DNA from: Marinomonas balearica
GTDB lineage: Bacteria > Pseudomonadota > Gammaproteobacteria > Pseudomonadales > Marinomonadaceae
DNA length: 64,000 nucleotides
Assembly: GCF_004362145.1 (NCBI RefSeq)
Contig: NZ_SNXC01000012.1
Coordinates: 372,001-436,000, forward strand
Direction: 5' to 3'
Part shown: positions 7,079-33,329 of the stretch, piece by piece
Layout of the letters: each line of letters begins with the position of its first letter
How positions within the stretch are numbered: position 1 is the stretch's first letter
Program-made: the position numbers and the translations under genes
Notes under the pieces: model-generated
Told to the model about the DNA's origin: nothing
Database searches by the model: none
Seen by the model: only the letters and a program-made list of their open reading frames with translations

Positions 7079-7179
7079 TGGGCACCTCGATAACATTTGA
7101 AATTCTTAAAATAATAAGAACTGACTGATCAAATAGCCATGAGATTTATATTAAGAAAAACTCATAGTTGTTTGTTTTT

Positions 7180-9502: not shown

Positions 9503-9504
9503 TG

Positions 9505-14044: not shown

Positions 14045-14059
14045 CTTGCATCTCCAAGC

Positions 14060-14734: not shown

Positions 14735-14750
14735 ACTAGAACCCTCTTGA

Positions 14751-16145: not shown

Positions 16146-16192
16146 CAAAAAAATTCCATTGTAAAATTAACTAGGCGGTTCATGAGCCGCAC

Positions 16193-17140
16193 TTAATTCA
16201 TGAATTCTGCGGTATCTTGCTCTTCTCCTCGGAACATCAACACAGAGGTCATATCGTCGTCTTCCATTGGTTTGAAGCTGTCATAAATGTCAGTCACTTG
16301 TCCTAACGTGGTGACTTCACTTTGAGATTCTTTTGAATCTTTTTCAGGGGAGGTAGACAAGGCAAGGTCTTGACCTTGAACGCTTCTTAGCGCTAATTGT
16401 AATATCCCGACTTCGCGCGCAACGGTGAGCCGCTCAACGTCTTTGGGAAGCACTTCTAACGTGACGGTTTCGTAGGATTTACGCTTGTTTGAATCGGTTT
16501 TCTTCTCTTTCTTTGATTCGACTTTCTGTACTTTTTCTCGAAAGGCGTCCAGTGTGCCGTTCAGTGATAAGACACGGACATTTCGCAACAAGGTTTGCGA
16601 GGCCAATTTTGGAAGCTTAATGGTCGCGAGTGGATTGTTATTAGCCCCTTGCTCATAATCTCGTTTTAAACTCAAAATCACATCGACACGATCGCCACCT
16701 GAGATTAACCCTGCATTACTCGTTACTACATCAGCTGGTATCGCCACCGCTCTCATTCCCGGCTTTAATACTGATGCAATGAATCCAGGCTCACCCGGAG
16801 ATACCAGCAAGTCGCTTTCTAATTCTGTTCCGGCTGGAATCGGTTGCGTTACGGTCGCGCCGTACAGTTGACTTTTTTCATCCAACCCTTTTAGGAAAAA
16901 AGCATCTTCTGGATACTGTTTGTCTGCAGCTCGCCATTCGATGGACGTTGCGTTCATAAAGTCCCCCGGCCTTAACGTATTTGACGCCACTAGCACCGCG
17001 CGATAATTGGGCTTTTTCGGCACAACTTTAGTTACCGTTTTTGGCGGTGGCTCTGAGGTCAAAAGAGCGCTACCAAGAAGCGCACCGCCTAATGCGAAAA
17101 TCAGCGCACCAGACACGAAAAAAACAGATGAAGCTTTCAT
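16193..17140 (-). CDS. rcpC: RcpC/CpaB, Tad pilus assembly protein
   Basis: 315 residues. One N-terminal helix (VFFVSGALIFALGGALLGSA) anchors the protein. A SAF domain follows (YRAVLVASNTLRPGDFMNAT), then the CpaB core with LKPGMRAVAIPADVVTSNAG and GGDRVDVILSL. A Lys-rich insertion (KVESKKEKKTDSNKRK) lies near residue 215. CpaB/RcpC is periplasmic and associates with the secretin. The position between tadV and rcpA is canonical. Confidence 0.92.
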   Translation of the reverse strand: MKASSVFFVSGALIFALGGALLGSALLTSEPPPKTVTKVVPKKPNYRAVLVASNTLRPGDFMNATSIEWRAADKQYPEDAFFLKGLDEKSQLYGATVTQPIPAGTELESDLLVSPGEPGFIASVLKPGMRAVAIPADVVTSNAGLISGGDRVDVILSLKRDYEQGANNNPLATIKLPKLASQTLLRNVRVLSLNGTLDAFREKVQKVESKKEKKTDSNKRKSYETVTLEVLPKDVERLTVAREVGILQLALRSVQGQDLALSTSPEKDSKESQSEVTTLGQVTDIYDSFKPMEDDDMTSVLMFRGEEQDTAEFMN

Positions 17141-17158
17141 TTAACAATCTCTCTTGTG

Positions 17159-17719
17159 TTAACGAAATAAGGGGCTTATGAGGACGTAAAAATAACCAAC
17201 CGATATGGCCAGTCCATAGGGCAGTCCTTTCACTCCTTCACGTGAGAACGCGATAGGAGCCGGGATTTTGAAACTTGGATATCGTTCTGAAAGCTGCAAT
17301 ATGGCTTTCGCGCCAGCAAGCTCGATGAGCGAAATAAACGGCAAAAACAAGGCCAGCACGCCGCCCGCTAACGCCGTCACTACTAAAAACGTCAGCTGCT
17401 GCTCAACGCCTACCCATAAGCATAAAATTGACATCAACTTAACGTCTCCTGCACCCATTTGACCGACCAAGAACAAGCAGAACCCCACCAGTAAAACGCC
17501 GACAGCCCCCAAACTCGTATAACCAAAATCCGCTAATAGCGCAGATCTATTTTCGTCTGATGTGATCAAAGATAGGGCGGCAGAAACCAGCCAAAGCACC
17601 AACAGCATCAACACCAAACGATTGTGTATACGTCGGTAAAATAGATCCGTCACAATGACCCACAAAGAGGCAAACGTCAGGATGACTGGCATGGCGAAAT
17701 CAAACATGAAGGGCGTCAA
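17159..17719 (-). CDS. tadV: TadV/CpaA prepilin peptidase
   Basis: 186 residues and polytopic. Catalytic aspartates of the A24 family are visible: Asp25 in VTDLFYRRIHNRL and Asp92 in GAGDVKL. The enzyme cuts the leader from Flp and the TadE/F pseudopilins. The start is uncertain: the longest frame begins with TTG at 17719, close after an AGG, and an ATG at 17707 would shorten it by four residues. It follows the flp stop by four bases. Confidence 0.9.
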   Translation of the reverse strand: MTPFMFDFAMPVILTFASLWVIVTDLFYRRIHNRLVLMLLVLWLVSAALSLITSDENRSALLADFGYTSLGAVGVLLVGFCLFLVGQMGAGDVKLMSILCLWVGVEQQLTFLVVTALAGGVLALFLPFISLIELAGAKAILQLSERYPSFKIPAPIAFSREGVKGLPYGLAISVGYFYVLISPLFR

Positions 17720-17723
17720 TTGC

Positions 17724-17921
17724 CTATTCTGTGCCAGGGTTGTTGGTGTTTGTAATCTGATCGGCGATCGAAGAAAAACGATCTTTTAGTGCCGTTACAA
17801 ATACGCCGTCTGAACCAAATATGACACCGATGGCCGCCGCCATCGCCGCAGCAAGAATGCCGTACTCAATCGCCGTTACGCCGCGCTCGTCAGACAAAAA
17901 ACGTTTTATGCTTGATTTCAT
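17724..17921 (-). CDS. flp: Flp major pilin
   Basis: 65 residues with the class IVb prepilin hallmark: a short leader ending DERG, then VTAIEYGILAAAMAAAIGV. Cleavage is expected after Gly14, leaving Glu at +5 and Tyr at +6, the Flp motif. A single hydrophobic helix is followed by a short polar tail. The ATG has a GAGAGGAAG ribosome site. It is the first gene of the tad operon and the only flp copy in the window. The mature protein would be about 51 residues. Confidence 0.95.
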   Translation of the reverse strand: MKSSIKRFLSDERGVTAIEYGILAAAMAAAIGVIFGSDGVFVTALKDRFSSIADQITNTNNPGTE

Positions 17922-17971
17922 TTCTTCCTCTCAATATCACAATAGTGGTTGTTCCTGAATCGAGACATATT

Positions 17972-17990: not shown

Positions 17991-18204
17991 GATACAATAG
18001 GCAAAGCATTAAGAATGCTTAATGAATACAGACTGGCTCTTGTTGCGTGGCCGTTGGTAGGATGAACCCCTGAATGTCACATAGGACAAGCAGGCACCAC
18101 ATTGAACGTTTACTGCTTGAAATATGGATTCTTTTTGAACAGTTAAGATTAAGTAACGAATGTGAAAGTTAAGTTATGTAACGCTAGGTAAAGATAATGT
18201 AGTT

Positions 18205-18223
18205 GATAATGATTATCGTTGAG
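18205..18223 (+). promoter_or_regulatory. Fur-box-like sequence upstream of the response regulator
   Basis: GATAATGATTATCGTTGAG matches 14 of 19 positions of the Fur consensus, including nine consecutive ones. A further GATAATG lies just upstream. It is about 80 bp before the ATG at 18301. Iron control of the pair is inferred, not shown. Confidence 0.45.
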
Positions 18224-18300
18224 TCTAGAATCCGACAAACTGTTGTGTGAAAACCAAAGTTTCAAAACCCATAAATTCAACCCTTGCCGAGATTACTATT

Positions 18301-18966
18301 ATGCGTATTCTGATTGTTGAAGATGATGCCTCTGTCAGTCATTGGATTAGCAGTAAACTGCATACCTCAGGGCACTCGTGTAAATTAGTCGATAATGGGG
18401 AAGATGCCCTTAAGCTCATCAAGGAAGAAGTGTTTGATGTCATCTTGCTTGATCGGGTCATTCCCAAGATTGATGGTATTCAACTGTTGGGTTTGCTGGC
18501 AAATGAATCTCATCCACCGGTTTTAATCTTATCCGCAAATGATCAAACTTCAGATCGGATTGAAGGCTTGAGAGCCGGAGCGGATGACTACCTAGGTAAG
18601 CCATTTGATTTTGCTGAGTTGCTGTTGCGTCTGGAAAGACTTTACTGCCGTACAAAACAAGTCGCATCGAGTAACTTCATAAAAATCAAAGACATGATCA
18701 TTAATTTAGAGCGCCATGAAGTGACTCGCTCTGGACATCGAGTAGATCTCACCAACAAGGAATTCAAACTGCTTTATGTGTTGGCTGAGCACCCGGGGCA
18801 GACGGTAACGCGCAGTATGTTGCTTGAAAAAGCATGGGGCTACCACTTTGATCCACAGACCAATGTGCTGGATGTTCACTTGTCCAAACTTAGAAACAAG
18901 CTCGATGGTGGTTCTAAAAACCCAATTATCCGAACGATACGGTCCGTTGGGTATGCATTAGGGTAA
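18301..18966 (+). CDS. OmpR-family response regulator
   Basis: 221 residues. The receiver domain starts MRILIVEDDASVSHW, has the acidic pair, the phospho-acceptor Asp51 in VILLDRVIPKIDG, and the conserved Lys in DDYLGKPF. A winged-helix domain follows (LTNKEFKLLYVLAEHPGQTV, ending IIRTIRSVGYAL). A GTG-initiated frame from 18247 exists, but the canonical family start is the ATG at 18301. It is followed after three bases by the kinase gene. The pair sits between the tad operon and the operon at 20.3-33 kb, so it is a candidate regulator of either; this is inferred from position. Confidence 0.9.
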   Translation: MRILIVEDDASVSHWISSKLHTSGHSCKLVDNGEDALKLIKEEVFDVILLDRVIPKIDGIQLLGLLANESHPPVLILSANDQTSDRIEGLRAGADDYLGKPFDFAELLLRLERLYCRTKQVASSNFIKIKDMIINLERHEVTRSGHRVDLTNKEFKLLYVLAEHPGQTVTRSMLLEKAWGYHFDPQTNVLDVHLSKLRNKLDGGSKNPIIRTIRSVGYALG

Positions 18967-18969
18967 ACT

Positions 18970-20346
18970 GTGTTTATAAAGCCATTACTTCATAGCAGCA
19001 GTTTTCGGCAAGCTGCGACCATTGCGTTTATTTGTTTACTTATTTCTTCTGCCGCCATACCCATTTGCGATCATGTTCTCAGCAATATTATGAAAAGCCA
19101 TGTTCGCGGGATGATTTTTGAAAACCTTGAAAATCAAAAACTTAAAGGACTTTTTAACAACAGTAGATGGCTCGCTAATCAGCTCTCCACCGATTACCAA
19201 CTAGACACTCGTAAAGACCATTTTTCATTCATTCTGGATAGCCAAGATCAGCTGATATATGGCCAACAGGCGATACTTACGCAAGCTCAAATTCTGGTTT
19301 TGAGCGACAACCGGTCGAATGCCCCGAAAATTTTATCGTTAAAAAGCCAGCACAGTGAATTATTCGGGTTGTTGACACCTCTGGCTGACGGCGGCCTTTA
19401 CTTTAATGCCTATAACGTTCAACCCATGCTGCAACAAACGCGCATTATTCCTTTGATGACAGGTGCAGGCTTGCTGGCCATCCAATTGTCGATCTTACTG
19501 ATTAGTCTGCCTTTCAGTCTGCACAATCTCTTTCGCGTAAACCACATCATCGAAGTCTTAGAGCAGTATGCACAAGGCAAGCACGACGTTAGAGTCAATT
19601 ATAAGAACAACGGTGATGAGTTTGGCCAATTGGGTAAAGAAATTAATTTGGTTCTCAGTCGCACTGAAACCTTAATGGGCGAAGTACGCACCATTACTAG
19701 TCATGTTGCCCATGAACTGAGAACGCCATTAACGCGTTTACAACATAAGCTTATTAACGTGTCTGAAAAAATAGATGAAAAAGAGCTTCAGGAGTTGGAA
19801 GACGCGATTAAAGAAACAGAACAAATCCAGAGGTTGTTTCGCTCAATTATGCGTTTGTCTGAGGTTGAAACCGGACAAGTCAGTCATCAAAAAAATAAAA
19901 TAAATGCATACGACATACTCCATGAAGCGTATGAGTATTACCTACCTCTGGCAGAAAACCTCGATATTCAATTAAACATAGTGGCCAATAAAAAATACCA
20001 TTTTTATGCGGATAAGATCTTAATTTTTCAGGCCATTGCTAACCTATTGGATAATGCTCTTAAGTATGCGCCTGACAGTAAAATCATCACTCTTAGCATA
20101 GAATCTTCATTAGGTAACACCCTTATCAAGGTGTCTGATCAAGGAAAAGGGATCGCCGAAGAAGATCAATCTGTTGTCACCAAGCGCTTCAAACGGCTCA
20201 CCAGTAAACAAGATGTTTTTGGTCATGGTTTGGGACTCACTCTAGTTCAAGCCATCACCACTTTGCATAATGGCGAGTTAACGCTAATCAATAATCATCC
20301 GGGATTATCCGTCTGCATCGCACTTCACTCTAATGAAATAAACTAG
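18970..20346 (+). CDS. Sensor histidine kinase
   Basis: 458 residues, GTG start three bases after the regulator stop. There are two membrane helices (about 12-36 and 160-183) around a periplasmic sensor of roughly 120 residues, then HAMP, a HisKA box TSHVAHELRTPLTRL (His248), and an ATPase domain with N box NLLDNALKYAP, G1 DQGKGI and G2 GHGLGLTLV. All catalytic boxes are present. The signal is unknown. The last four bases overlap the convergent M50/HlyD gene, leaving no room for a terminator between them. Confidence 0.9.
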   Translation: MFIKPLLHSSSFRQAATIAFICLLISSAAIPICDHVLSNIMKSHVRGMIFENLENQKLKGLFNNSRWLANQLSTDYQLDTRKDHFSFILDSQDQLIYGQQAILTQAQILVLSDNRSNAPKILSLKSQHSELFGLLTPLADGGLYFNAYNVQPMLQQTRIIPLMTGAGLLAIQLSILLISLPFSLHNLFRVNHIIEVLEQYAQGKHDVRVNYKNNGDEFGQLGKEINLVLSRTETLMGEVRTITSHVAHELRTPLTRLQHKLINVSEKIDEKELQELEDAIKETEQIQRLFRSIMRLSEVETGQVSHQKNKINAYDILHEAYEYYLPLAENLDIQLNIVANKKYHFYADKILIFQAIANLLDNALKYAPDSKIITLSIESSLGNTLIKVSDQGKGIAEEDQSVVTKRFKRLTSKQDVFGHGLGLTLVQAITTLHNGELTLINNHPGLSVCIALHSNEIN

Positions 20347-22463
20347 AACGAAGATTCCCTAACAAGGACTGAGACCACTCTTTTCACAAGCTGACTCAAT
20401 AGACTTTCTGCCTTGGCATCAATATAGACTTCACCCCGTATTACCCAATTTGGCGAAACCGCATTAGGTTCTGTTGGTGTTAGAAAAGCCCGATAGACCG
20501 CTTCCTCAGCGATAGGAATTGGGTCATTTTTAGCGTTGCTAGACGCCACTCTTCCGCCATAAACCGAAGCTAATTCCGGTGCAGAAGTTAACTTAGTCGA
20601 AGCAATATTTTCAACACCTTCTAAGAATAGAGACAACTTCGGATAAGAAAGGCTTTCGGGGATAAAATACGCGTCAGAATCGACCTTAATTCGATTGAGA
20701 TCGCTTTCCTTTATATAAGCTTCGACGGTATTTGATCGAGTATTAACAAGCATTCCTAACCCTTCCCCTGCGGCCAGCCAATCGCCTTCCTGATGCAGAT
20801 TGGATTGCGTCATCACGACACCCTCAAAGGGCGCGGTTAGGGTTAACTGTGCCAATTGTTGGTTGATTAGCGTTAAACGCTGGTTGGCTGTCACAAGCTC
20901 CTCGTTAATCACCTTTATACTGGCGGAAGCGTTCGGACTGAATGGATTCACATCGGCTTGTTTTTGCAATCGAGTAATACGCAACGTCAACCTGTCCGCT
21001 TCTCGGTTCAGCTCCGGTGAAACAAATTCAAATAGCTTTTGTCCTTTCTTTACGGCCTGATGAGGCTCAACAAATGAACGATGCAGCTGCGCGTTTGCAG
21101 GAACGTATAGGTTAAACTGTTGAGAAGATCGCATCACAGCAGGCGCTCCGACTTGGCTTTGCCATGGGTAGCACAATACAAATAACAGAATGGCCAACAG
21201 TGTCAGACTGCATACGGTGTTTTTATTCCAACTCATAATACTTCTCTTCTGCTGCCAAACTTTCAATTCTTTGAATACAGGCAATACAATAAACACCCAC
21301 AATTCCACGATAAATAAAGCAATGCCCAATAACTTAAACGCAAAGTGGTACACCATAAGGGCGATGCCGACGTATAAAAACAATCGATACAACCAGGTGA
21401 CAAGCGTATAACTCAACAATACTCTCTGCATTTGCACAGAGAAAATCTCGGGTGGCGATTGATTAAACGCAAAAATCCATTCTCTAATCTTCCACCGAGT
21501 GAAAGCAAAAGCTCTGGGTTGTAAGTTTGCTATTCCAAGAAAATCGGATAACAAAAAATACCCATCAAAACGCATAAAGGGGCTTAAATTAATCAGTAAG
21601 GATAAGATCCAAGTCGTCGTAGCCAACATAAAGGCGAGGCTCTTGCCCGTTCCTTCTGGCATGAAACTCCACAGCAACAGCCCCCAAGCGCCTACTAACA
21701 GCTCAACGATGACGCCAGCCGCACCAATCAACATCCTTTGTTTTTTACTTTTTAACCGCCAAGCACTTGAGGTGTCTGTGTATAAAACCGGCCACAGTAC
21801 GAGTAAAGCAACGCCCATTGTTGCGACCTTTCCGCCGTAATGTTTGCAAGTATAGGCATGGCCTAACTCATGTAGCGACTTAGTAAAAAAGAGCGCTAGT
21901 ACAAGGGCTAACATGCCTTCAAAAGAAAAAAAGTGCATATAAGTATGCGTAAACGCTTGCCATTGGCGGCTCACTAAAAAGAGCCCTAGAACAGCTGCAA
22001 GTACAGAGAGAAATATAAATAACCGACTGAAAAAGAACCGCGTTAAAGGCAAGGTAAGCGCTAAAAAAGCATCAGGGCGACATAGGGGAACGCGCATAAA
22101 TAAATAATGGCGTAACAGCCATCGAATAGGGTTTATTGAACCCCATTTCGCTTCGTTCTCAGGCTTGGCGAGACGCGTATTTATCAATAAATGGCGACCC
22201 TGCAAAAAATTATAAAAGGCCTTCACATCCTCTACTGAGACAAGCAAAGTCAAGTGCTGGCAAATATCCTCAGCAATCGCTTGAGCACTGTTCAGAGACC
22301 AGCGTGCTAGCATCTCCATTTCATGCCAACCGAGACGATAAAATTGCCCACTGATTGGATCTTCTAGTGTCCAAGTCGGCGCACCGAATGCATCTTCTGG
22401 CGCTTCGAAGAGTTTCAGATCTTCTCTTAACGGAGCCCATTCTGTCGCCGTTGCATCAAGCAT
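20343..22463 (-). CDS. M50 site-2-protease-like membrane protein fused to HlyD-type adaptor
   Basis: 706 residues in three parts. An N-terminal cytoplasmic region of about 130 residues resembles PqqD-like substrate-binding modules. A polytopic part has the zinc motif HELGH (198-202) and the second S2P motif NLSPFMRFDG (292-301), followed by more helices up to about residue 430. The C-terminal half is a periplasmic adaptor with lipoyl-like segments (VPANAQLHRSFVEPHQAVKK and LTAPFEGVVMTQSNL). The protease motifs look intact. Such fusions are annotated as peptidase M50 or HlyD-like but are poorly characterised. It is the last gene of the operon that also makes two other adaptors, a TolC-like protein and the large surface protein. 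Processing or export of that protein is inferred from context. Confidence 0.82.
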   Translation of the reverse strand: MLDATATEWAPLREDLKLFEAPEDAFGAPTWTLEDPISGQFYRLGWHEMEMLARWSLNSAQAIAEDICQHLTLLVSVEDVKAFYNFLQGRHLLINTRLAKPENEAKWGSINPIRWLLRHYLFMRVPLCRPDAFLALTLPLTRFFFSRLFIFLSVLAAVLGLFLVSRQWQAFTHTYMHFFSFEGMLALVLALFFTKSLHELGHAYTCKHYGGKVATMGVALLVLWPVLYTDTSSAWRLKSKKQRMLIGAAGVIVELLVGAWGLLLWSFMPEGTGKSLAFMLATTTWILSLLINLSPFMRFDGYFLLSDFLGIANLQPRAFAFTRWKIREWIFAFNQSPPEIFSVQMQRVLLSYTLVTWLYRLFLYVGIALMVYHFAFKLLGIALFIVELWVFIVLPVFKELKVWQQKRSIMSWNKNTVCSLTLLAILLFVLCYPWQSQVGAPAVMRSSQQFNLYVPANAQLHRSFVEPHQAVKKGQKLFEFVSPELNREADRLTLRITRLQKQADVNPFSPNASASIKVINEELVTANQRLTLINQQLAQLTLTAPFEGVVMTQSNLHQEGDWLAAGEGLGMLVNTRSNTVEAYIKESDLNRIKVDSDAYFIPESLSYPKLSLFLEGVENIASTKLTSAPELASVYGGRVASSNAKNDPIPIAEEAVYRAFLTPTEPNAVSPNWVIRGEVYIDAKAESLLSQLVKRVVSVLVRESSF

Positions 22464-22469
22464 GATTGA

Positions 22470-23819
22470 CTACCAACTTAACCAAATACGCAGCTTGGTG
22501 AGCGGTTTTCTAAACACATAGTAAAACAGAGAAGTTTGCTCCCCATATAACTTTGCTAAGCCCTTTTTTCCTAACCTGAGCGTCGCATTATCATTCACAA
22601 ATACTGCTGTAAGGTGTAAAGCATATTGCCCATCTTGAGTAGGCCGGGCTTGGTAATCAATGCTCTGAACCTGCGCTTTAATTGGCGCACTAGGGTTGCT
22701 ATCGAGAAAGTATTTCACACTAGAGCCTGCTGTGATACCAATCACATCTTCAAGGGGTAAGCGCACCTCAAGCTCAATCTCATCCGGATTGGCGATGGTC
22801 ATGAGAGGTTCACCAAGCGTCATGGGCTTGCCCAGCCAGTCGCCCGCATCATCAAAAATAGCGACGCCACTGTGAGGTGCTCTAAATTCTGTGCGGCGCA
22901 GCTGATCCTGCAAGTAGTTCATATCTGATTTGGCTTGCAGAAGTTTGCCTTCTAGAATGGCCAGAGTCGCCTTCCTCTGCTCATCAATGAACGACTGCTG
23001 TTGGGCCATTCTCAACTCTGCACCGGTTATCACATAAGTCTGATGCGCGCTTTCTAATTCTTGTGTTAATGCTTGAGCATTCAACTTAGCGACCAGTTGA
23101 CCTTGCTTAACCTGTTCATTGGGTTTAACCAATAGCTCGCTGATCACCCCTTCAATGGGGGCTCTTAACACACTTGGCTGCTGCGGTACGATATCCGCCG
23201 GAGCGATAACAGATTGTTGAACAGGGAGCGATAAAACCCCAATCGTCGCAAGCAGGCCCAGCAACCACCACAGTGCGGATTTTTTCCGCTGCCCTTTGGG
23301 CTTTTTAGCGCCAGTTAACCCAATCCAAGCGTGGCCGTAGGCTTCTAGCAGAAAGCCTAATAGTTTTTTGTCTCGTAGGTTTAGCGGGGTTGATCTTGAT
23401 AATAATAAAGCCCCGATTAAATCCCCCTTGGCAGATTTAATCGGGAGCCAAATGAATCGTGTAGAAAAGTATTCCGAACCTTGTTTTGCATCTTCAGGAC
23501 TTAAATCTGCCACTTCAATAGCATGGATTCTATCGGCTTTCTCTGTTTTCGCGATCCCAGATAACACACGATTTAACCAGCTGCAAAAGGGGGCATTGGA
23601 ATCGACATCAACTAAGCCTGATGCGCCTTCTACTTTTTTAGAGCCAAACATCCACAACAAACTTTGCTGAAAAGGCACTAATAACTGCGTGTCATTCAGG
23701 CAGATAAATTGCCATTCTTGTAAATTTTCCGCGCCCCGTATTTTTTGCTCTAACTGCACTAACGTGAGCAGCGTTTCCTCTACCGTAACGGCCTTTTGAT
23801 CCTTTAGGCTGATCGTCAT
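22470..23819 (-). CDS. HlyD-family adaptor with N-terminal GAF-like domain
   Basis: 449 residues. Residues about 15-165 look like a GAF domain (FSTRFIWLPIKSAKGDLIGA, LRDKKLLGFLLEAYGHAW). A basic stretch KKPKGQRKK then a single helix (182-200) would leave this domain in the cytoplasm. The periplasmic part is a membrane-fusion adaptor: VLRAPIEGVISELLVKPNEQ with VKQGQLVAKLNAQ, a coiled coil, then FRAPHSGVAIFDDAGDWLGK. A cytoplasmic GAF-like domain on an adaptor is unusual and could sense a ligand or bind a partner. The start overlaps the upstream adaptor gene by four bases, and the next gene starts six bases after its stop. Confidence 0.82.
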   Translation of the reverse strand: MTISLKDQKAVTVEETLLTLVQLEQKIRGAENLQEWQFICLNDTQLLVPFQQSLLWMFGSKKVEGASGLVDVDSNAPFCSWLNRVLSGIAKTEKADRIHAIEVADLSPEDAKQGSEYFSTRFIWLPIKSAKGDLIGALLLSRSTPLNLRDKKLLGFLLEAYGHAWIGLTGAKKPKGQRKKSALWWLLGLLATIGVLSLPVQQSVIAPADIVPQQPSVLRAPIEGVISELLVKPNEQVKQGQLVAKLNAQALTQELESAHQTYVITGAELRMAQQQSFIDEQRKATLAILEGKLLQAKSDMNYLQDQLRRTEFRAPHSGVAIFDDAGDWLGKPMTLGEPLMTIANPDEIELEVRLPLEDVIGITAGSSVKYFLDSNPSAPIKAQVQSIDYQARPTQDGQYALHLTAVFVNDNATLRLGKKGLAKLYGEQTSLFYYVFRKPLTKLRIWLSW

Positions 23820-24631
23820 CTCACGCTCTCAGTTGTTGATGTCCATTGAGACGGATCGAAATAAGCGTTGCCACTCATTCCGGGAATGAGGCGCACATTT
23901 GGCGTCTTTAGGATCTCCCCAAACACCGTAAAAGACTGACTAAGCGGGTCTATGACTGCGCCTAAACGCGTTACCTTGGCGTTATACATTTGCTGAGTTT
24001 CGTCCAATTTAACTTGGAAGGCGTGCCCAATTTTTATATCGCTAATCCAACGAGATGGGACTATTAAAGCGACCTCAAAGACTTTGCTGTTGTAGACTTC
24101 GAGAATCGGTTCGCCTTCCGATACGAACTCGCCTTGCTGTACTAAACGTTTAACCACACGACCATTAAAAGGGGCGTAAACACCACATCGGTTGACCATT
24201 ATTTCACCAATACGACGCTCGGCTTGCGCCATCAAGGCATCGGATTCAGCTTGATTGACTTCCATCACACTGATTGACTGCAAATTGTCTAAGCGCTTAG
24301 CAACGGCTCGCTTTTGTTCGGCGGCTTGCGCCGCCGCTTTGGCATAATCCAGCTTGGCTTTATAAATGTCACAATCAAACTCAACGAGCGTTTGCCCCTT
24401 TTTAAAACTTTGGCCTTCTTTTAAGGTCAGTGTTTTAATCCGACCAGAGAGCTGGCTGGATAGCACCGCTCTGTCTTTGGCGTTCAACTGCACTCGAATA
24501 GTCGGCTGAGATACCCACTTCGCGCCAAGCGGTTCATTGTCTTTTAACAAGGTATTTGCATTTAAGACACCGCTTAACATCATGCCAAGAACAAACGTAA
24601 CACACGATCTAGTACGACAATAAACACTCAT
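23816..24631 (-). CDS. Periplasmic adaptor protein (HlyD/RND type)
   Basis: 271 residues with an N-terminal signal segment (SCVTFVLGMMLSGVLNANT). The adaptor pattern is clear: VLSSQLSGRIKTLTLKEGQS with FKKGQTLVEFDC, a short coiled coil (about 95-145), then CGVYAPFNGRVVKRLVQQGE and VSEGEPILEVYN, ending in a beta-barrel region. It is shorter than most RND adaptors. It overlaps the TolC-like gene and the GAF-HlyD gene by four bases each, so the three are translated as a unit. A role in joining the inner-membrane parts to the TolC-like channel is inferred. Confidence 0.85.
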   Translation of the reverse strand: MSVYCRTRSCVTFVLGMMLSGVLNANTLLKDNEPLGAKWVSQPTIRVQLNAKDRAVLSSQLSGRIKTLTLKEGQSFKKGQTLVEFDCDIYKAKLDYAKAAAQAAEQKRAVAKRLDNLQSISVMEVNQAESDALMAQAERRIGEIMVNRCGVYAPFNGRVVKRLVQQGEFVSEGEPILEVYNSKVFEVALIVPSRWISDIKIGHAFQVKLDETQQMYNAKVTRLGAVIDPLSQSFTVFGEILKTPNVRLIPGMSGNAYFDPSQWTSTTESVR

Positions 24632-26319
24632 GGCTGGACGTAATTCGTATAATCAATGATGGCCGTTTCTTGTAAAGAATCGCCAGTGGACAGCATCACC
24701 AGTTGTGGCTTCGGTATTTCTTCTTTTGGCTTAGTGTCGGTCTTTTCATATTGATCTGACAGGTTGCCTAATGCGCCGTTCAGAGCGACCTGTGATGCAA
24801 GTGCTTCGTCTGAAATGCGGCCTTGCTGAAGTAATGCATCTTGATGCGCAATTGACGCTGATAAGGTTTCAACACTGGTGTCTGCAATGGATTTCGGTAA
24901 TGGATCAAGCCCAGCGGCTTTGTAAATCGCGCCATATGCACTTTGCATCATAGCGAAGCTTTGATCTCGGTTACGTTTCGCCAGCACGCTTTCTGTCGCG
25001 ATACGGACACGTTCAACCAAAGATTGGGTGTTATTTTGATACGCTCCCGTACTTTGCACAAAAATGGCGTCTTGAATCCTCGACAGCTCAGCCGTACGTT
25101 GAAATTGATTATCGGCTTGTTTGTACTGTTGCCATGCGAGGTTAACCTGAGTTAGAACCGCCATTCTCAATGCTTGACGACGTAAATCTGCAATTTTTTC
25201 TTTTGCTTCACCAACGCTTTTTACATCGCTATAGGAAAACGCACTGAGTAGATTCCAACTAACTTGGACACCTGCATCGGCCCAATCATTGTTCAAGGAG
25301 TAACTGTTACTATTGTAGTGAGCACCGACAAACAAAGATGCGCCGGGCAACAAACGCATTAGTGAAGAGCGCGTCTCTAAGACCGTGTTTCTTGCACGAT
25401 AAGCTTCTTCATTGATTTCTGGTCGATTGACCATAGAAAGTGTCTCAAGCTCTTCCAGCTGATAAGGCAGCGCTAACGGCTGAGTACTTTGAGAGGCTAG
25501 CTCATATTGCGTTGCGGGTGGAAGGTTCATTAAACCTGCTAAACGAGATTTGGACGCCGCTAGATCGCCTTCCAGCGTTTCCAAACGACTGATCATTTCG
25601 AGCAAGCTTTTCTGATATTTCAAGGATTCTAATGGCGAGATCAAACGCTCAGCGGCGGTTTGCTTGGAGGTTTCTAACGCACTGTAGGCGTCTTTTAACG
25701 TACGTTTTACCAGCGGCTGAAGCTCTTGAGCTTTCACTGCTTCCCAATACGCACCTCGTACATTTTGAATAATATCGGCGACCACACTGCGACGTCTTTC
25801 TTCTGCGGCAAGGACATTGTTCGCCTGTGCTTTCGAGCCAAAATACCCAATCCCAAAGTCCAGAACATTCCAAGAAACGCTTAAATCTGCCGATGACGAT
25901 TGCTTATCTTGGCTAGTAGAAGACACCAAGGACTCAGTGCCTGTAGCAATCGATTTACTCGATGATGCGGCTTCGTTATTTCGTGCTGTCCATCCTGCAC
26001 TGGCGGCCACTTTTGGCAACATATCAAAGCTTTGCAGACCCAAAATATTGTCTTGCGCCAATTTTTCCATCAAGGCGAGACGTTCTTTAAGGTTGTATTT
26101 AACGGCTCTCGCCATTGCTTCTTCAAGGCTGATTGGCTGTGTAATTGGCTCTTGATCCTGAAACATGGCTTTTCGGTCTGCGTCCACCAATGCTAATTTT
26201 TGCTCAAACGTAATGGGCGTTGGTGTGACAGAGCAGGCCGTCAGGCTGAATAAAATGGCACCTGCAACCGCCGTACGATGTAACGTTTTATACTCTAATA
26301 CTTTGCTTTTTATAGTCAC
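24628..26319 (-). CDS. TolC-like outer-membrane efflux lipoprotein
   Basis: 563 residues. The start is a GTG at 26319 with AAAAGG eight bases upstream. The signal ends FSLTAC, so Cys29 is probably lipidated. Two outer-membrane-efflux repeats follow (ISLEEAMARAVKYNLKERLA and, later, LPYQLEELETLSMVNRPEIN), with long alpha-helical stretches typical of the TolC barrel-tunnel fold. The C-terminal tail of about 60 residues is polar and Lys/Glu-rich. The protein likely forms the outer-membrane exit duct used by the neighbouring adaptors. It lies 34 bp downstream of the giant surface protein gene. Confidence 0.87.
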   Translation of the reverse strand: MTIKSKVLEYKTLHRTAVAGAILFSLTACSVTPTPITFEQKLALVDADRKAMFQDQEPITQPISLEEAMARAVKYNLKERLALMEKLAQDNILGLQSFDMLPKVAASAGWTARNNEAASSSKSIATGTESLVSSTSQDKQSSSADLSVSWNVLDFGIGYFGSKAQANNVLAAEERRRSVVADIIQNVRGAYWEAVKAQELQPLVKRTLKDAYSALETSKQTAAERLISPLESLKYQKSLLEMISRLETLEGDLAASKSRLAGLMNLPPATQYELASQSTQPLALPYQLEELETLSMVNRPEINEEAYRARNTVLETRSSLMRLLPGASLFVGAHYNSNSYSLNNDWADAGVQVSWNLLSAFSYSDVKSVGEAKEKIADLRRQALRMAVLTQVNLAWQQYKQADNQFQRTAELSRIQDAIFVQSTGAYQNNTQSLVERVRIATESVLAKRNRDQSFAMMQSAYGAIYKAAGLDPLPKSIADTSVETLSASIAHQDALLQQGRISDEALASQVALNGALGNLSDQYEKTDTKPKEEIPKPQLVMLSTGDSLQETAIIDYTNYVQP

Positions 26320-26353
26320 GTTATAAACCTTTTAATTCCATCATTTACAATTC

Positions 26354-29300
26354 TTAAGATGCCGCCGTCAGATCATTCAATAACAGCTTGTTAATGTTAA
26401 AAACACTCAGCGAACTCGCGTCATTCACCTGTTCTGAGAAAGGCGCGTTATTCACTTGGGCATGGCTGCCGGATTCCAATTTCACTTCTACGGGTATCAC
26501 TGACGTCTCACCATTTTCATCAACTACAAGCACATGCAGCTCTATTTGTTGAGTGTCTCCAAGCACGTCCTTGTCTAGATTCAGCCGACCCGTCTCAAGG
26601 TCATATTCAACGCCTTCTGGCAACCCAATACCATCTGCCGACATCACCGCAAGAATGGCTTTTTCCTCTTCTGACATCACACTGTCTAGTAATGAAAGTT
26701 GAGCGTTACTTATGCCTTGCGACCATTCTATGGACGTTGATCTATAGGACTGCAATGACGTTGTAGACTCGGTTTGTGCGCTGTCTAATCGAGTATTTTC
26801 AGTAAACGAAAGTGACGTGCTAAATGAATCGGAACCAAGGGTCGATGTGATAAGGGCGGTATTTGCAGAAACATCCATGCTGCTTACTTGGTTGTCTAGT
26901 GAAGAAATATTTTGTGAATCGAACTGAGTAAAGTACTGCATTGCCGCTTCGCTTGGACTCACTGTCGTGCTACTTGGACTCACTGTCGCGCTACTTGGAT
27001 TAGCGGTCGTTTCGCTCGCGTCTATTTGAGACGAACTGGGCGATGAGGGAACCACCATAGATTCCACCGTGAGCGTCACTTCAATTTGAGCGCTCTGACC
27101 TTTCGTATCGGTGGTTTGTATGACCACTAAAAATTCACCTGACTCGACCGCATTGCCAGAAATGACCAAGGTGTCTGAGTTAAAGCTTAAACCGTTTGGT
27201 AACCCAGTGACTTGCCACGTTAACGTGTCATTAGAGGCATCGGAGAACAATGTATCCGGTAGCTGGATACTTACGGATTCCGTTTCCGTGATATTGGAAA
27301 ATTGATAACTGTCTGCAAGCTGTGGCGGTAGATTTTCTGCGACATTTAGCGCTATTTCGACAGAATTACTCGATGCGTCGCCGTCATTAATTGAGACGGT
27401 AAAAGACAAGGTGGCCGCTTGCGTGAGTGAGGCATTTTCAAAGGTTAGGCTTCTTGCTAGGGCGTTTACTTGATCTTGCGTTAGCGCGGATGAGATCGCG
27501 ACTGAGAGAGTACCGTCATCATTTACAAAGCGGCCAACCACCTCGCCTTGATACAATAAATTTTCACCGTCCAGTGTAAACTCACTGTCGCTTGCCAAAC
27601 CGAAGGTATCGGAGGCATTGATGGTCGAACCTGAAAGCGTAATGGTTAGGCCTGAGTAATTGTCAGAGGCTGACATTTCTTCATCAAAAATGGTCAGTTC
27701 AGGAGCCAATACAACTGCATCAAAACCGATTTCATACAAGGACTCTTCACGCCCCGTCGCATCATAAATTGCAACGACATCAGTACCTTGCAGGAACACA
27801 TGGCCGGCGTCCGAAATAGAAAGATACGCTCCCTCAGACGACGCTCCTTGCATAATGCCCGCCTGCGTTAAGGATCCGTCTTCACCGATAATATAGCGGT
27901 ATAAGCTGCCGTCAGAGGTCAATACGAACAACTTCTCATTATCCGCAGACACGACTAAATCCGATAGGTTTTCGACAAGAATGGCCTCGTCAGTAACCAG
28001 TAAAAAGGATTCGCTTTCAGCATCATACGAATAGGTATAAATACTCGTATCGTTCACCACATAGATGTATTCACCGTCGTCTGTTGCCGCCACATGTGTG
28101 GTTGAACTCAATATGGCACTATTGCCAGCCGAGTCTTCACTGCCATCACGAATGTAAGCTTTCCATTCAAGGCCGGATTCCTCTTGTTCAAATACAATTA
28201 GCGTTGAGGTACGAAAATTAGTGGTTACGAAGACATAATCTCCCGAAACAGTCAGGCTGCTAGGGTTCCACAGGTAGGGGGAGCTCCACGCATCGGCTAT
28301 CTTTTGCACAAAGCTTAATTCACCGGTTTCGGCGTCACGAGTCATTTCACTTAACGCTGTACTGTTGATGTAATAAAAGTGCAGTCCATCTTCTGATAAG
28401 ACAATGTCTTGAACGCCACTCACGGTGATTTCGTTGGTTTCATAGTCAGCAACAATTACTTGAGTATTCGACAACACAAGATCTTCTGATAACGAATACA
28501 CGGCGATAACATCGCCCTCATTGCCAAGCAGATAAAGGTTTTGACCATCGGCCGTGGTAATTAATTTATCCACGGAATCAACACCATCAACGGAGGTTAG
28601 GGTGCTTTGATATTCCCATTCGCTGCTTTCATCGTTGAGGGTAAAGACCGCAATGTTGCCACTGCTGTCCGCCACATAAAGCACACCGCCGTCACTCGAC
28701 ACATTGGAAGCGCTAACATCCGTAAGCCCTTCGGCCGCACTTAACGTCTCAGTTAAAGACATTTCACCCGCCGCAATGGAAGCGTCTTGGGTAACCTCAG
28801 GCGTATCGTTGAGCGCTGTAATGTTAATTTGAGCCATCAGGATATTTGACGTGAGGCCAAATTGATCCGACAAGGTCACGGACACATTGACTGTCGACTC
28901 AGGCGTTTCGCTGCTGTTTTGGTATTGAATTTGGTTGAGAACATTTTGCACGTCTTCTGTGGTAGGGACAGTGCCGTTATCTTCCGTAAAGGTAATGGTT
29001 AAAACCCCACCCTCATTTGAAACAGTGGCAATCACCACACCGTCTTTTGTCAAAGAACTTCCTGTTAAAGCCAGCCCATTTGCCTCTTCAAATACCAGCT
29101 GATCGCTCGACGTTACGTCGGCTATAGACACAATTAATTCAGCACCGTGATAATTACCTGCCCCGTCGTTGTAGGCGTCCATTTGCGAATCTGTTAGAAC
29201 AGCATCGGGGAACACTGACGTGGCGGCACCATTTTCTGTGTAAGCGATCTGATTGGTTGTGCTGGTTATGGTTGGAGCAACATTATCTTCATCTGCGGCG

Positions 29301-31393
29301 GCTAAGGTGATTGTGGTCGTACCATCGTACAAAGTGGTCGTTTCACCGATATCCGACTGGCTTGTGTACTCGATAATACTGAGGCTTACGGTTCGTTCTC
29401 CACTCGTGTCATCCCCCGTATATTTATAAGCAATACCGTCAATAACTGACGCCGCATTTTCGGAAGAGTCCATGATATAAAGCGTCACCGTCACGACACC
29501 ATCTTTTTCTGTGATGGAGTACGATGTATTGTCCACCGTTTGGGATGTTCCTGAAAAAGCTTCTAAGGTGATCTTACCCTTGCCTACTTTTAGTAGGTCA
29601 TCGGCGGTGGCTCCTGTAATGGCGATCTGAACTTTCCAGATGGTCTGGTCTGCTTCTATGGTTTCGATGCTGGTATCGCTAAACAAGAGAGTGTAATCAT
29701 CGCCAGTCTGGTAGGTTATCTCGTTTGTGGTCGTGGAGATCTCCGCCGGATTATTCACCCCGATCAAATTCACTTGAACATTCACCGAGGTTTCATTACC
29801 GTCCCCGTCATTGACCGTGATTGAAAAACTAGGACTGGCGCCATTCGCTACCGGATCATTACTTGAGTTGGAATAGGTGATTTGACGCAACACTTGTTGT
29901 GCCGTGGCTTGAGACGTTGAAGCCGTAAAAGACACGGTTAACAAATTGTCTACCACCGTGAATGTCGCGATTTCACTTCCATCCTTGAGAATCTTTCCGT
30001 CTTCAAGTGTTAGGCCATTCGCCTCTTGAAAACCGAATTCGTCTTCTACTAACGCGCCAGATTCGCGGGTGATGGTGTAGCTGGCACCCTGATAGTCATC
30101 CAGTGCGTCCAGCTCCGAATCACTGATGATGCCAGTGGGCAGCAATAGCGTACCTTGTTCATTTTCGGTGTAAGACGCCGCAGGGACATCAAAACTAAAC
30201 GATAAAATGCCATCACTGATCACCACAAACAGTTTTGAATGATCTGCGCTTAAATAGGCTTGAGTGATGCTAGAAAAGTTCGCACCGAGATCGTTGTCAG
30301 AGCCATCAATAGTTTGAACTGCCGTTAGGTCAGCAGTGTCATCTTGCAAGAAGACATCTATGTATGCGCCCATAACAAAAACGCCCGTACCGTCTTCCGA
30401 CACTAAAATGGTTCTGGCTTCATCGGACACAGAATAAGTATCCGCCAAGGTCAATTCACCGGCATCGTCGTACGTCATGACCAATAAACTAGAGCCGTCG
30501 TTATCATTCAACGCATAGATGGTTTGACCGTCAGCAGAAATTTTTACCGAATTGATAAAATACTGATCGTCTTCTCCCGTTACGGAGCTGACGTAGGTAA
30601 GTGTGCCGTCGTCGTTTACATCAAAGAGTGTCACCGCATTCGAACCACCACTGGCTCCCACCACCAGACGAGTACCGTCTGCACTAATCGCAATACTGTT
30701 TGCGCCTGTTAGCCCAGAAACGCCTTCCGTATCATTGCTATATTGCGCAACAAGAGACAGCGACCCTTCATCATCTGACGATAAAACAAGGACTTGGTCG
30801 CCTCCCGTGACGTACAAATAATCGCCGGAGGTTTCTATATCGAAGACAAAACTGGATACGCCATCAATACCAAAGTCGGTTATTTCAGTACTGCTCAGGC
30901 GTGTTAACTCGCCCGTCTGCGTATCTCGACTAAACACAACCAAGCTGTTGTCGTCTTCACCAAACACATAGAGGTAGTTTTGATCAGACGACATACTGAT
31001 CAAACTGGCACCCGCCAAGCCTTCGTTTTGTACCACTTGGTCGTTAGTATAAGTCTCTAAATTGAACACAGACGTGTAGTTGTAATAGCTTTGCACTAAG
31101 GTTAATGAGCCATCTTCCGCCACGCTAAACACACTTAAAACGGAGGAATCAGTGCTCCATGAACTTGAGTTACTGCTCACTGCATAGACAAAATTGCCGT
31201 CTTCAGAGACAGACACGTCTTCGGCCGCAGCCAATACATTAGAATACGTGCTTGAATCGTAATCGTTCGTCTCGTCGACATAATCAATGTTGGTTGACTC
31301 CACTTCCAAAGTGGCGGCCCCAGCAGCATCGAACATCATTCTCTGCTCAAGGGCAAAGACCCCTAATGAACGCGATGGTTTGGCAAACAACAT
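26354..31393 (-). CDS. Large surface protein with LEPR-like N-terminal motif, beta-propellers and cadherin-like repeats
   Basis: 1679 residues, strongly acidic. There is no ordinary signal peptide; the N-terminus is MLFAKPSRSLGVF followed by LEQRMMFDAAGAA at 15-27, close to the LEPR-x-x-FDAA motif found at the N-terminus of many giant extracellular proteins. Two beta-propeller-like regions (about 50-400 and 880-1220) contain repeated strands such as ISADGTRLVVGASGG and TADGQNLYLLGN. Between and after them are cadherin/Calx-like repeats, for example SITVNDGDGNETSVNVQV. An Ig-like domain starts near 1354 and a Ser/Thr/Pro linker lies near 1444-1490. I found no RTX nonapeptides. A CAGGAG ribosome site precedes the ATG. 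It is probably the substrate of the transporter genes that follow. Confidence 0.8.
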   Translation of the reverse strand: MLFAKPSRSLGVFALEQRMMFDAAGAATLEVESTNIDYVDETNDYDSSTYSNVLAAAEDVSVSEDGNFVYAVSSNSSSWSTDSSVLSVFSVAEDGSLTLVQSYYNYTSVFNLETYTNDQVVQNEGLAGASLISMSSDQNYLYVFGEDDNSLVVFSRDTQTGELTRLSSTEITDFGIDGVSSFVFDIETSGDYLYVTGGDQVLVLSSDDEGSLSLVAQYSNDTEGVSGLTGANSIAISADGTRLVVGASGGSNAVTLFDVNDDGTLTYVSSVTGEDDQYFINSVKISADGQTIYALNDNDGSSLLVMTYDDAGELTLADTYSVSDEARTILVSEDGTGVFVMGAYIDVFLQDDTADLTAVQTIDGSDNDLGANFSSITQAYLSADHSKLFVVISDGILSFSFDVPAASYTENEQGTLLLPTGIISDSELDALDDYQGASYTITRESGALVEDEFGFQEANGLTLEDGKILKDGSEIATFTVVDNLLTVSFTASTSQATAQQVLRQITYSNSSNDPVANGASPSFSITVNDGDGNETSVNVQVNLIGVNNPAEISTTTNEITYQTGDDYTLLFSDTSIETIEADQTIWKVQIAITGATADDLLKVGKGKITLEAFSGTSQTVDNTSYSITEKDGVVTVTLYIMDSSENAASVIDGIAYKYTGDDTSGERTVSLSIIEYTSQSDIGETTTLYDGTTTITLAAADEDNVAPTITSTTNQIAYTENGAATSVFPDAVLTDSQMDAYNDGAGNYHGAELIVSIADVTSSDQLVFEEANGLALTGSSLTKDGVVIATVSNEGGVLTITFTEDNGTVPTTEDVQNVLNQIQYQNSSETPESTVNVSVTLSDQFGLTSNILMAQINITALNDTPEVTQDASIAAGEMSLTETLSAAEGLTDVSASNVSSDGGVLYVADSSGNIAVFTLNDESSEWEYQSTLTSVDGVDSVDKLITTADGQNLYLLGNEGDVIAVYSLSEDLVLSNTQVIVADYETNEITVSGVQDIVLSEDGLHFYYINSTALSEMTRDAETGELSFVQKIADAWSSPYLWNPSSLTVSGDYVFVTTNFRTSTLIVFEQEESGLEWKAYIRDGSEDSAGNSAILSSTTHVAATDDGEYIYVVNDTSIYTYSYDAESESFLLVTDEAILVENLSDLVVSADNEKLFVLTSDGSLYRYIIGEDGSLTQAGIMQGASSEGAYLSISDAGHVFLQGTDVVAIYDATGREESLYEIGFDAVVLAPELTIFDEEMSASDNYSGLTITLSGSTINASDTFGLASDSEFTLDGENLLYQGEVVGRFVNDDGTLSVAISSALTQDQVNALARSLTFENASLTQAATLSFTVSINDGDASSNSVEIALNVAENLPPQLADSYQFSNITETESVSIQLPDTLFSDASNDTLTWQVTGLPNGLSFNSDTLVISGNAVESGEFLVVIQTTDTKGQSAQIEVTLTVESMVVPSSPSSSQIDASETTANPSSATVSPSSTTVSPSEAAMQYFTQFDSQNISSLDNQVSSMDVSANTALITSTLGSDSFSTSLSFTENTRLDSAQTESTTSLQSYRSTSIEWSQGISNAQLSLLDSVMSEEEKAILAVMSADGIGLPEGVEYDLETGRLNLDKDVLGDTQQIELHVLVVDENGETSVIPVEVKLESGSHAQVNNAPFSEQVNDASSLSVFNINKLLLNDLTAAS

Positions 31394-31433
31394 AGCAATA
31401 CTCCTGCTTAGTGAATCTTTTTCCTGACGTTTT

Positions 31434-33020
31434 TTACTTTATTAAGCGTACGTAATAATTCTGTCGAATCTCTTCTGCGATCTCTTCAAGTGAGTTGTCG
31501 ATTTGGCTTTTTCCTTCGACAAAGCTAGATGCGTCAGCGAAATACAGGCCACCACCGCCCCCTGCACATTCTCGTAATCCTGGGCCTGCAATATCTGCAA
31601 ATAACGTCCTGCTGAAATCTGCTGGGTCGCCCGGGCGAACACCGATGAAGAAAAACTTAATATTCTTATCTCTAAAACTCCGGCACACATCGTGGAAGCG
31701 CTGCGTCGCAAAGGCTTTAGCTGAGCCTGGCCCCGTTGAATCCAAAGCTTGATCACGGTTGAAGTTATAAGCATCCGTGTCGAACCACTCTCCGGCTGTA
31801 TTTGCCAGCATCACAATCACCTTCACATTGCTCTTGCTTTTACTGAAGTCGAGCGGTAATTCGCTGTCCCCCCAGCCAGAGCTTCCGCGCATGTTTGGTG
31901 AGAGCGCATGGCCGGCCCAACCCATTGCAATGGCATAATTGACGTTGAATCGAGTCGACATTTCATCAAGGCGGCCATCAATCGCGTCTAAGTCATTTGT
32001 TAAGGGTAGGAGTGGGGCATTAGGGCAGCCTTTATCCGCAACAATCCAGCGAACATCCTCAGCCACCGAGCTTGGCCATAAGCTGGGGTTAGGGCCTACC
32101 CACGAAATGGGCGTCGCGCCGGGACTGCCGTTTTGAGGGAGGTCATGGCGGTAATACACCCCGAATTGACTGTCAGGTTGTTGATCCCAATTGAAATTCT
32201 CTCCAGCCCCCAACCCACGATACATACAAAGCAATTTCGCTACGCGATCTGGAAAACGGGGGTCCGCTAAACTGCGGACTTTTCCGGTCTTAAATAAGCT
32301 GCGCAATTCAGGTGGGTTCAAGGCTCCGGCGGCCGCCCATCTGGAGATTCGTTCCGGATCATCAGCATCATAGACATTCACGGTCTGACTAAATGGCACT
32401 AAAGACAGCCAGACTTTTTGTGCGCTATTAGATGCATCCGTATCTTCCCCAAGAAGGTTTCGAGCAAAATTCTTCCCCAGTTTTCGCAAAGCGACCAGCT
32501 CAGGTTCATCCTCTGTTAGGGTATTCGGCAATAACAAGGCGACTTCTGTGGGAGTAGACACCACTTCAACCTTTGAAGAAATAACCTGATCTTCCGTCTG
32601 CGCATTCAATAAATCAGATTGAGTTTTAAGTGTGACGGTAACGGTAAAAGTAGGGTGGCCATCGTTCGTACCCTGCGTGACAGAAATGGAAGTTGTATCA
32701 ATTTGATCTATAAGGCCTGAATCCATACCAAGGTTATTCAGCACATAGCCTTGGGCAATGGAATCTAGATCGGTTTCATCATCGTTGTTGTTTCGCAGTT
32801 GTATCTGACCAATCGCAAGGGCGGCAGCGTCAGTAGCGCGTTTTAGCTGGCCAGCGGTATTCACCATTCGAACCGTATCAAACGCAAATGAAAGCCCCAC
32901 GAGCGCGCCCACTAATATCAACACAATGAAAGGTAAAGCCGCGCCAGAATCGCTTCTTAAAAAAGTGTTTAATGCATTTCGTGTGCTCGAAACATGGGTA
33001 TGCAGACAACGGGTTTTCAT
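31434..33020 (-). CDS. tadG: TadG-like Tad pilus assembly protein with degenerate vWA domain
   Basis: 528 residues from an ATG at 33020 (an in-frame TTG lies one codon upstream). The N-terminus has the TadE/G pattern LRSDSGAALPFIVLILVGAL and FAFDTVRMVNTAGQLKRATD with AAALAIG. A C-terminal part has the layout of a von Willebrand A domain (KVIVMLANTAGEWF, later KNIKFFFIGVRPGDPADFSR). At the place of the metal site (about 161-170) the sequence is VALLLPNTLT rather than DxSxS, so metal binding is probably lost. TadG is normally the last gene of a tad operon; here it is 13 kb away and starts the surface-protein operon, which suggests that the two loci work together. Confidence 0.8.
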   Translation of the reverse strand: MKTRCLHTHVSSTRNALNTFLRSDSGAALPFIVLILVGALVGLSFAFDTVRMVNTAGQLKRATDAAALAIGQIQLRNNNDDETDLDSIAQGYVLNNLGMDSGLIDQIDTTSISVTQGTNDGHPTFTVTVTLKTQSDLLNAQTEDQVISSKVEVVSTPTEVALLLPNTLTEDEPELVALRKLGKNFARNLLGEDTDASNSAQKVWLSLVPFSQTVNVYDADDPERISRWAAAGALNPPELRSLFKTGKVRSLADPRFPDRVAKLLCMYRGLGAGENFNWDQQPDSQFGVYYRHDLPQNGSPGATPISWVGPNPSLWPSSVAEDVRWIVADKGCPNAPLLPLTNDLDAIDGRLDEMSTRFNVNYAIAMGWAGHALSPNMRGSSGWGDSELPLDFSKSKSNVKVIVMLANTAGEWFDTDAYNFNRDQALDSTGPGSAKAFATQRFHDVCRSFRDKNIKFFFIGVRPGDPADFSRTLFADIAGPGLRECAGGGGGLYFADASSFVEGKSQIDNSLEEIAEEIRQNYYVRLIK

Positions 33021-33329
33021 CAACAGCGAAACTCTTAAGAGTGATTAAAAATAATGTCGGGAGAGGTTAGTGCAGATGATTACTATTCGCAATAAAATAA
33101 CGATTTGGCTTTATTAATAATCATTAATATTTGTTCGTCGAAAAGCAGCAGAACGCTTGAATGTACCGTTACAGCGGAGAGGGAAGAGGGTCTTTCTTTC
33201 ACCCGCGCCCTTTAAGGGACGGGTGACATGATCTCAACCAAAAGGAAGGGAGAGACCAAATAAGCGTTAGAAGGAATAAAAGCGAGAAGAAGCAAAACTC
33301 GAAAAGCCGTTGCGGCTGATGCGAATAGC
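33021..33329. promoter_or_regulatory. Intergenic region upstream of the tadG/surface-protein operon
   Basis: 309 bp without a gene. It holds the promoter of the leftward tadG operon. An AT-rich sequence at 33110-33128 with ATAATCATTA matches 13 of 19 Fur consensus positions. A GC-rich hairpin CACCCG (33200-33205) / CGGGTG (33220-33225) with an inner CCCT/AGGG stem lies near the rluF end; it has no T-run on either strand, so I do not call it a terminator. Confidence 0.5.

Follow-up and report, generated by a model that had tools for sequence, protein, structure and literature searches.

A TadG-like minor pilin whose sequence lacks the acidic metal-site ligands heads a giant-protein operon beside the tad genes of Marinomonas balearica

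Genes and features of the locus

The window (the whole stretch of DNA analyzed, 64,000 nucleotides of Marinomonas balearica contig NZ_SNXC01000012.1) contains a TadG-like gene, called TADG here, at the head of a tight operon (Table 1). Giant-protein, TolC, two HlyD and M50-HlyD genes follow it, with successive intergenic distances of 40, 34, -4, -4 and 6 bp. The tad operon lies 13.5 kb away (17921-31434). As the preliminary description had stated, tadG is absent from this operon (7567-17921) while the other expected genes are present: flp (Flp_Fap, 55 bits), cpaA, cpaB, rcpA, cpaD and tadA-tadD were assigned by Pfam, and tadZ, tadE and tadF were named from weak matches and position. The same description placed a TadG-like gene 13 kb from the tad genes at the head of the giant-protein operon, which our coordinates bear out. 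The TADG reading frame starts at TTG 33023 or ATG 33020, the latter being the gene end given earlier.

Table 1. Coordinates of the genes and sequence features in the window
Feature	Position	Strand	Remarks
tad operon: flp, cpaA, cpaB, rcpA, cpaD, tadZ, tadA, tadB, tadC, tadD, tadE, tadF	7567..17921	-	
Two-component system: OmpR-type response regulator (18247-18966), histidine kinase (18970-20346)	18247..20346	+	Counterpart in relatives
M50 metalloprotease-HlyD fusion	20343..22463	-	HExGH and RFDGY invariant in 9
HlyD-type periplasmic adaptor 2	22470..23819	-	
HlyD/RND-type periplasmic adaptor 1	23816..24631	-	
TolC-type outer-membrane channel	24628..26319	-	OEP domains
Giant protein	26354..31393	-	1679 aa; no Cys; lactonase-type beta-propeller and He_PIG Ig domain; probably secreted
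LEQRMMFDAAG motif near giant N-terminus	31319..31351	-	LEPRMMFDAA in most relatives
TADG: TadG-like minor pilin, vWA-derived C-terminal part without MIDAS	31434..33023	-	529 aa; Pfam, orthologues, profile match
Former MIDAS loop 3, residues 403-411	31791..31817	-	Canonical TDG, here ANT
Former MIDAS loop 2, residues 357-365	31929..31955	-	Canonical GxTN, here FNVN
Former MIDAS loop 1, residues 162-172	32508..32540	-	Canonical LDNTGSM, here LPNTLTE
Prepilin-type site G27-AALP-F32	32928..32945	-	Fits G/A-X4-F/E consensus (PMC12607857, accessible part)
Conserved 57-bp block upstream of TADG	33075..33131	-	All 7 Marinomonas loci; candidate regulatory region

Upstream of TADG, the window DNA matches the six other Marinomonas loci as far as 108-111 bp from the TTG in five cases and 204 bp in one, and homology stops at or near the outer edge of the conserved 57-bp block in 5 of the 6. 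Because the match ends near this block, TADG looks like the edge gene of an apparent island. Promoter-like sites were not more frequent than in shuffled sequences (21 vs. a mean of 25.1), and terminator-like sites were (32 vs. 18.2), though we drew nothing from the latter.

Just upstream of the response regulator gene, at 18204-18218 on the plus strand, lies a Fur-box-like palindrome with 1 mismatch to the consensus. In the regulator-flp gap of seven Marinomonas loci, the best Fur-like match has 0-1 mismatches in six and 3 in one; across the window, Fur-like matches with up to 3 mismatches are at chance level (5 vs. a mean of 4.1). In 7/7 Marinomonas loci, tadF is followed by genes for a DUF454 protein and a heme oxygenase (6419-7096 and 7180-7551, both on the minus strand), the Pfam naming being that of the window copy. 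Together with the Fur-like site, these two genes hint at iron-responsive control.

TADG and its former metal site

The Pfam Tad domain PF13400 was matched on residues 27-70 of TADG, at 20.4 bits in one run (cut-off 22.3) and 24.8 bits in another, and the same segment was matched in 9/9 TADGs at E up to 0.1 (best 1.7e-5). The predicted prepilin peptidase site precedes a hydrophobic stretch, and its G27 and F32 are invariant in nine orthologues. Four cysteines, N360, N362 and W369 are also invariant in the aligned sets. The named relative found comes from Marinomonas rhizomae (92% identity). The gene is encoded in a tad locus as its sole TadG, and it lies in the same locus in all seven Marinomonas genomes that carry it. 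The preliminary description had named a canonical tadG elsewhere in the genome as the counter-finding to look for, and none was found: TADG is the sole PF13400 match in the 3.88-Mb genome (17/17 first-look candidates scored), and a canonical vWA-TadG profile gave one match at E up to 1e-15 (3/5 candidates scored).

Pfam VWA models matched 0/9 TADGs vs. 8/8 canonical TadGs. Profile-profile comparison of nine TADGs with eight canonical vWA-TadGs nevertheless aligned 429 columns, nearly the whole length, with a probability of 99.9 (E 8e-37), which points to clear homology with canonical TadG, and the C-terminal part is thus predicted to have a vWA fold. AlphaFold2, run on the window TADG and its M. 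rhizomae relative (two sequences), gave a pLDDT of 33. A search of solved structures with a 7-row TADG profile gave chance matches to two chains of cytochrome c-prime (E about 0.6).

CpaL of Caulobacter crescentus, a TadG orthologue, is a predicted vWA minor pilin at the Tad tip that is tied to surface sensing, and its MIDAS ligands are D160, T162, S164, T470 and D515 (PMC12607857, as far as its accessible part goes). TADG resembles CpaL in its pilin-like N-terminus, its G/A-X4-F/E site and a vWA-type part apparently split by an insertion. C. crescentus also has, like M. balearica, a CpaD-type tad system, which served as the control match in our CpaD search. Unlike CpaL, whose MIDAS is complete, TADG has P166, T168, T170, V361 and N408 at these positions and thus lacks both aspartates (replaced by P and N) and one threonine (replaced by V). 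The profile-profile alignment pairs LLLPNTLTE of the window protein with the canonical loop 1 LVLDNTGSM. The earlier reading of VALLLPNTLT in place of DxSxS stands, at residues 161-170, and with it the absence of the complete D, T, S, T, D set. Loss of metal binding would follow from the missing acidic ligands, and altered binding by TADG, as proposed earlier, is plausible.

We aligned 35 TADG orthologues, from 7 Marinomonas genomes, 25 genomes of genus g68, 2 of g454 and 1 of g542 (locus L155, the same ORF as L154, was left out). The first ligand position is proline in 35/35, compared to aspartate in 30/30 other proteobacterial vWA-TadGs, which are the strongest matches to the canonical profile and so biased towards intact sites. 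Position 168 is Thr in 31, Ser in 3 and Ile in 1; position 170 is Asp in 24, Thr in 5, Ser in 2 and another residue in 4; position 361 is Val in 23, Thr in 10, Ile in 1 and a gap in 1. The last position (408) is Asn in 31, Asp in 2, Lys in 1 and a gap in 1, the Asp count being 2 or 3 as one Marinomonas row reads Asp in another alignment. Loop 2 falls in the top tenth of windows by conservation (35/360 as conserved or more), but loops 1 and 3 are averagely conserved (270/362 and 146/359), which lends at most weak support to a rebuilt binding site. The metal site seems to have changed once, in a single clade, and the tie of this change to the giant protein is therefore a single evolutionary observation.

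The TADG frame is unbroken in 34/35 loci; the break in one g68 genome (G728) is a sequencing error or real. dN/dS values of 0.12, 0.16, 0.18 and 0.10 in four pairs show that TADG is under purifying selection.

Another tad type occurs in Marinomonas. By eye, its TadG in genome G014 (L046:9716-11104) has NYAST for DxSxS and keeps TDG, which reads as a second, partial erosion of the metal site; giant and exporter matches are absent from the 20-kb stretch of this locus. The TadGs of the same type in G017 and G028 are intact and keep DFSGS, also by eye.

Distribution, gene order and the giant-protein exporter

Among the M. balearica genome and 55 relatives, TADG was found in 7/56, that is, in 7/35 Marinomonas genomes. 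CpaD passes its cut-off in the same seven only, two more genomes matching weakly below it. All seven share one gene order: TADG, giant, TolC, HlyD, HlyD and M50-HlyD, the regulator pair on the opposite strand, then flp to tadF. A class-wide sample of 274 genomes gave TADG in the M. balearica genome only. In a phylum sample, 38/398 genomes matched at E up to 0.001; four of the matches, from two Marinomonas and two g68 genomes, span the full length, and all others are partial. Outside Marinomonas, TADG relatives are present in 25/25 g68 genomes, and a sample of the g68 family gave 6/246 genomes at E up to 1e-20 (three g68, two g454, one g542). A plasmid search yielded three Azospirillum records, annotated TadE/TadG, in which an identity of about 30% extends over 29% of the query; we did not retain them.

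TADG is immediately followed by the giant gene in 28/28 enterobacterial loci (25 g68, 3 further), and these giants carry the LEPR motif in 25/25 and 3/3 loci. The spacing of the two genes was measured in 12 loci and amounts to 19-49 bp, or to an overlap of 4 bp. Five enterobacterial loci, covering three genera, were read at length, and in all of them flp to tadF are followed by TADG, giant and exporter on one strand. The Marinomonas order corresponds to a circular permutation of this locus in which the cut falls between tadF and tadG and the regulator pair is inverted. It thus appears to be a rearrangement of an enterobacterial-type locus, although a block swap would look alike. The view of TadG as detached holds locally in Marinomonas, but the gene is not stray, since the giant directly follows tadG in 28/28 and tadG follows tadF in 5/5 enterobacterial loci. 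The proposed link between pilus and surface-protein loci is borne out as one conserved locus (7/7 Marinomonas, 28/28 enterobacterial). The attachment island has probably moved horizontally. Our literature search found no description of the TADG-giant pairing.

We infer that g68 is Pectobacterium, because of the gene order, the presence of TADG in 25/25 genomes and an flp ORF in G384 that, at 222 bp, has the flp length given in PMC3767616. According to the accessible part of this source, mutation of the adjacent response regulator in Pectobacterium lowers transcription of the flp/tad genes tested, and Brenneria and Marinomonas sp. MWYL1 are named as carrying this cluster type, the latter with the regulator. 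The Marinomonas locus shares with the Pectobacterium cluster its regulator pair and its run of flp, cpa/rcp and tad genes, with the block order permuted. The main text of PMC3767616 as available to us contains none of the words tadG, HlyD and TolC, and the accessible part does not discuss a giant gene or an exporter.

A lactonase-type beta-propeller and a He_PIG Ig domain are present in the window giant and in that of G933. Giants of two g68 genomes reach 3244 and 3255 aa. Cysteine is absent from 9/9 giants, which share the N-terminal motif LEPR/LEQRxMFDA. The giant frame stops early in 2/25 g68 loci, at 392 aa (L154, G728) and 262 aa (L150, G726), and the giant gene of G882 (L214/L215) is divided between two ORFs (558 and 2163 aa); these are sequencing errors or real breaks. 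The giant protein is probably secreted. No ABC gene lies in the giant-exporter operon, which in its own gene content thus differs from classical type I secretion.

The M50-HlyD fusion family was detected in 257/398 proteobacterial genomes (E up to 0.001, a count that takes in weak generic matches) and in 74 plasmid records, among them 18 from Escherichia and 8 from Citrobacter. In one E. coli plasmid record, the fusion gene has TolC, two adaptors and a gene for an Ig-like giant as neighbors. In 20 further exporter loci, hand-chosen from the M50-HlyD matches with four tad-linked ones omitted, tad matches were found in 0/20, over at most 18 kb upstream, much of it filled by large giants, with three loci ending at 5-10 kb; a LEPR-type motif occurs in an ORF of 11 of them. 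Since the fusion family is widespread and none of these loci had tad matches, tad-linked loci would represent a special form of an export module that is otherwise common. A second M50-HlyD gene of M. balearica (C12:94257-96350, L174) adjoins an HlyD gene and part of a giant-like ORF, with no tad match in the 4.9 kb between it and the contig end. Our literature search, which left most subscription journals outside, found no description of a LEPRxxFDAA-type giant exporter.

Compared to G009, the TADG-giant-exporter block of the window is 90-98% identical and the tad block 84-88%, with dS of 0.12-0.36 in the TADG block vs. 0.47-1.03 in nine tad genes. This fits an exchange of the TADG block as a unit. 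Such a difference was seen in 1/4 comparisons only: in G010 and G004 the two blocks have similar values, and the TADG of G025, at 93%, is set off from the giant's operon as well as from tad (mostly 95-99%). We also considered the correlation of TADG and giant distances as evidence of coupling, and discarded it as not specific, since the partial r of 0.67 was exceeded by RcpA (0.75).

A composite attachment island

We think it rather probable that TADG serves the Tad pilus encoded at 7.6-17.9 kb as a minor pilin of the TadG/CpaL type, and that it belongs to an attachment island in which the giant protein has taken over the adhesive or sensing role. TADG would still be processed by the prepilin peptidase and would cap the pilus together with TadE and TadF. 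Its gene may be expressed together with the giant and exporter genes as a single apparent transcription unit, next to the tad genes and the two-component system. The role of a metal-bearing vWA tip would then be shared with, or handed over to, the giant, which would be made together with TADG and might either attach to the tip or work alongside it. We infer a tip location for TADG, a division of labour with the giant and co-regulation of pilus and giant. Pilus and surface protein are thereby suggested to form one attachment system, in which TADG would be coupled to the giant genetically and perhaps physically; direct contact between them is speculative.

Two known systems offer partial parallels. 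In P. aeruginosa, the tad and BapA genes form separate loci rather than one island. A single two-component system there, PprAB, nevertheless stands over Tad pili and a large secreted adhesin, its regulon comprising Tad pili, BapA with BapBCD type I secretion, and CupE (PMC6821963, accessible part). The adhesin and the type I secretion genes are other than those of the Marinomonas operon, which lacks an ABC gene. The "adaptable tips" of TadEFG/Kil likewise place a large minor pilin of the TadG type, bearing a C-terminal module, at the end of the pilus (PMC12075869, accessible part). A MIDAS-less vWA derivative next to a giant protein is not mentioned in that part, nor is a giant-protein gene beside cpaL in the available part of PMC12607857.

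The same data have a serious competing explanation, to which we give a considerable but not a prevailing chance: the Tad pilus and the giant exporter may be separate adhesion systems that travel together and maybe share a regulator, with TADG a plain pilin whose unneeded metal site has drifted. The exporter is common without tad, as the 20 chosen loci indicate, and PprB controls both tad pili and type I-secreted BapA in P. aeruginosa (PMC6821963, accessible part). The altered TadG of G014, whose 20-kb stretch has no giant or exporter match, adds that the metal site can erode without a giant neighbour. On the other hand, tadG and the giant gene have stayed within 49 bp of each other across a rearrangement and four genera, TADG shares the higher identity of the giant operon and not that of tad in one of the four comparisons, and P166, invariant in 35/35, is not drifting. 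At the opposite end of coupling, the MIDAS-less vWA domain could be a dock by which TADG, at the pilus tip, binds the co-encoded beta-propeller/Ig giant, which we regard as unlikely. If true, a retractable pilus would present a giant adhesin from an exporter operon without an ABC ATPase, and the tip adhesin of a Tad pilus would be separately secreted and exchangeable as opposed to built-in.

Two further explanations concern the vWA part itself. A non-canonical ion site might have been rebuilt with further acidic residues in the neighborhood of loop 3, for instance D415 and D417, which follow the former TDG loop and are invariant in 35/35; position 168 also keeps Thr or Ser in 34/35. Yet loop 1 offers no conserved acidic residue, with proline always at 166 and a variable position 170 that is Asp in 24/35, and we consider a moved site improbable. 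That tadG is dispensable and its vWA part degenerating would agree with the failure of Pfam VWA models on all nine TADGs and with the frame break in G728, but is disfavored by the low dN/dS (0.10-0.18), the otherwise unbroken frames and the invariant cysteines, N360, N362 and W369, so that we give it hardly any weight.

Under the favored reading, a minor pilin paired with a giant protein, TADG is a conserved variant, in a composite attachment island, of an already known kind of TadG. Adhesion, force sensing or priming are candidate functions of the vWA domain at the Tad tip, and a clade that lacks the metal site while the gene is under selection is a natural experiment that may separate metal-dependent binding from pilus assembly. 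The linkage of TADG to the giant also provides an entry to a widespread exporter of LEPRxxFDAA-type giant proteins.
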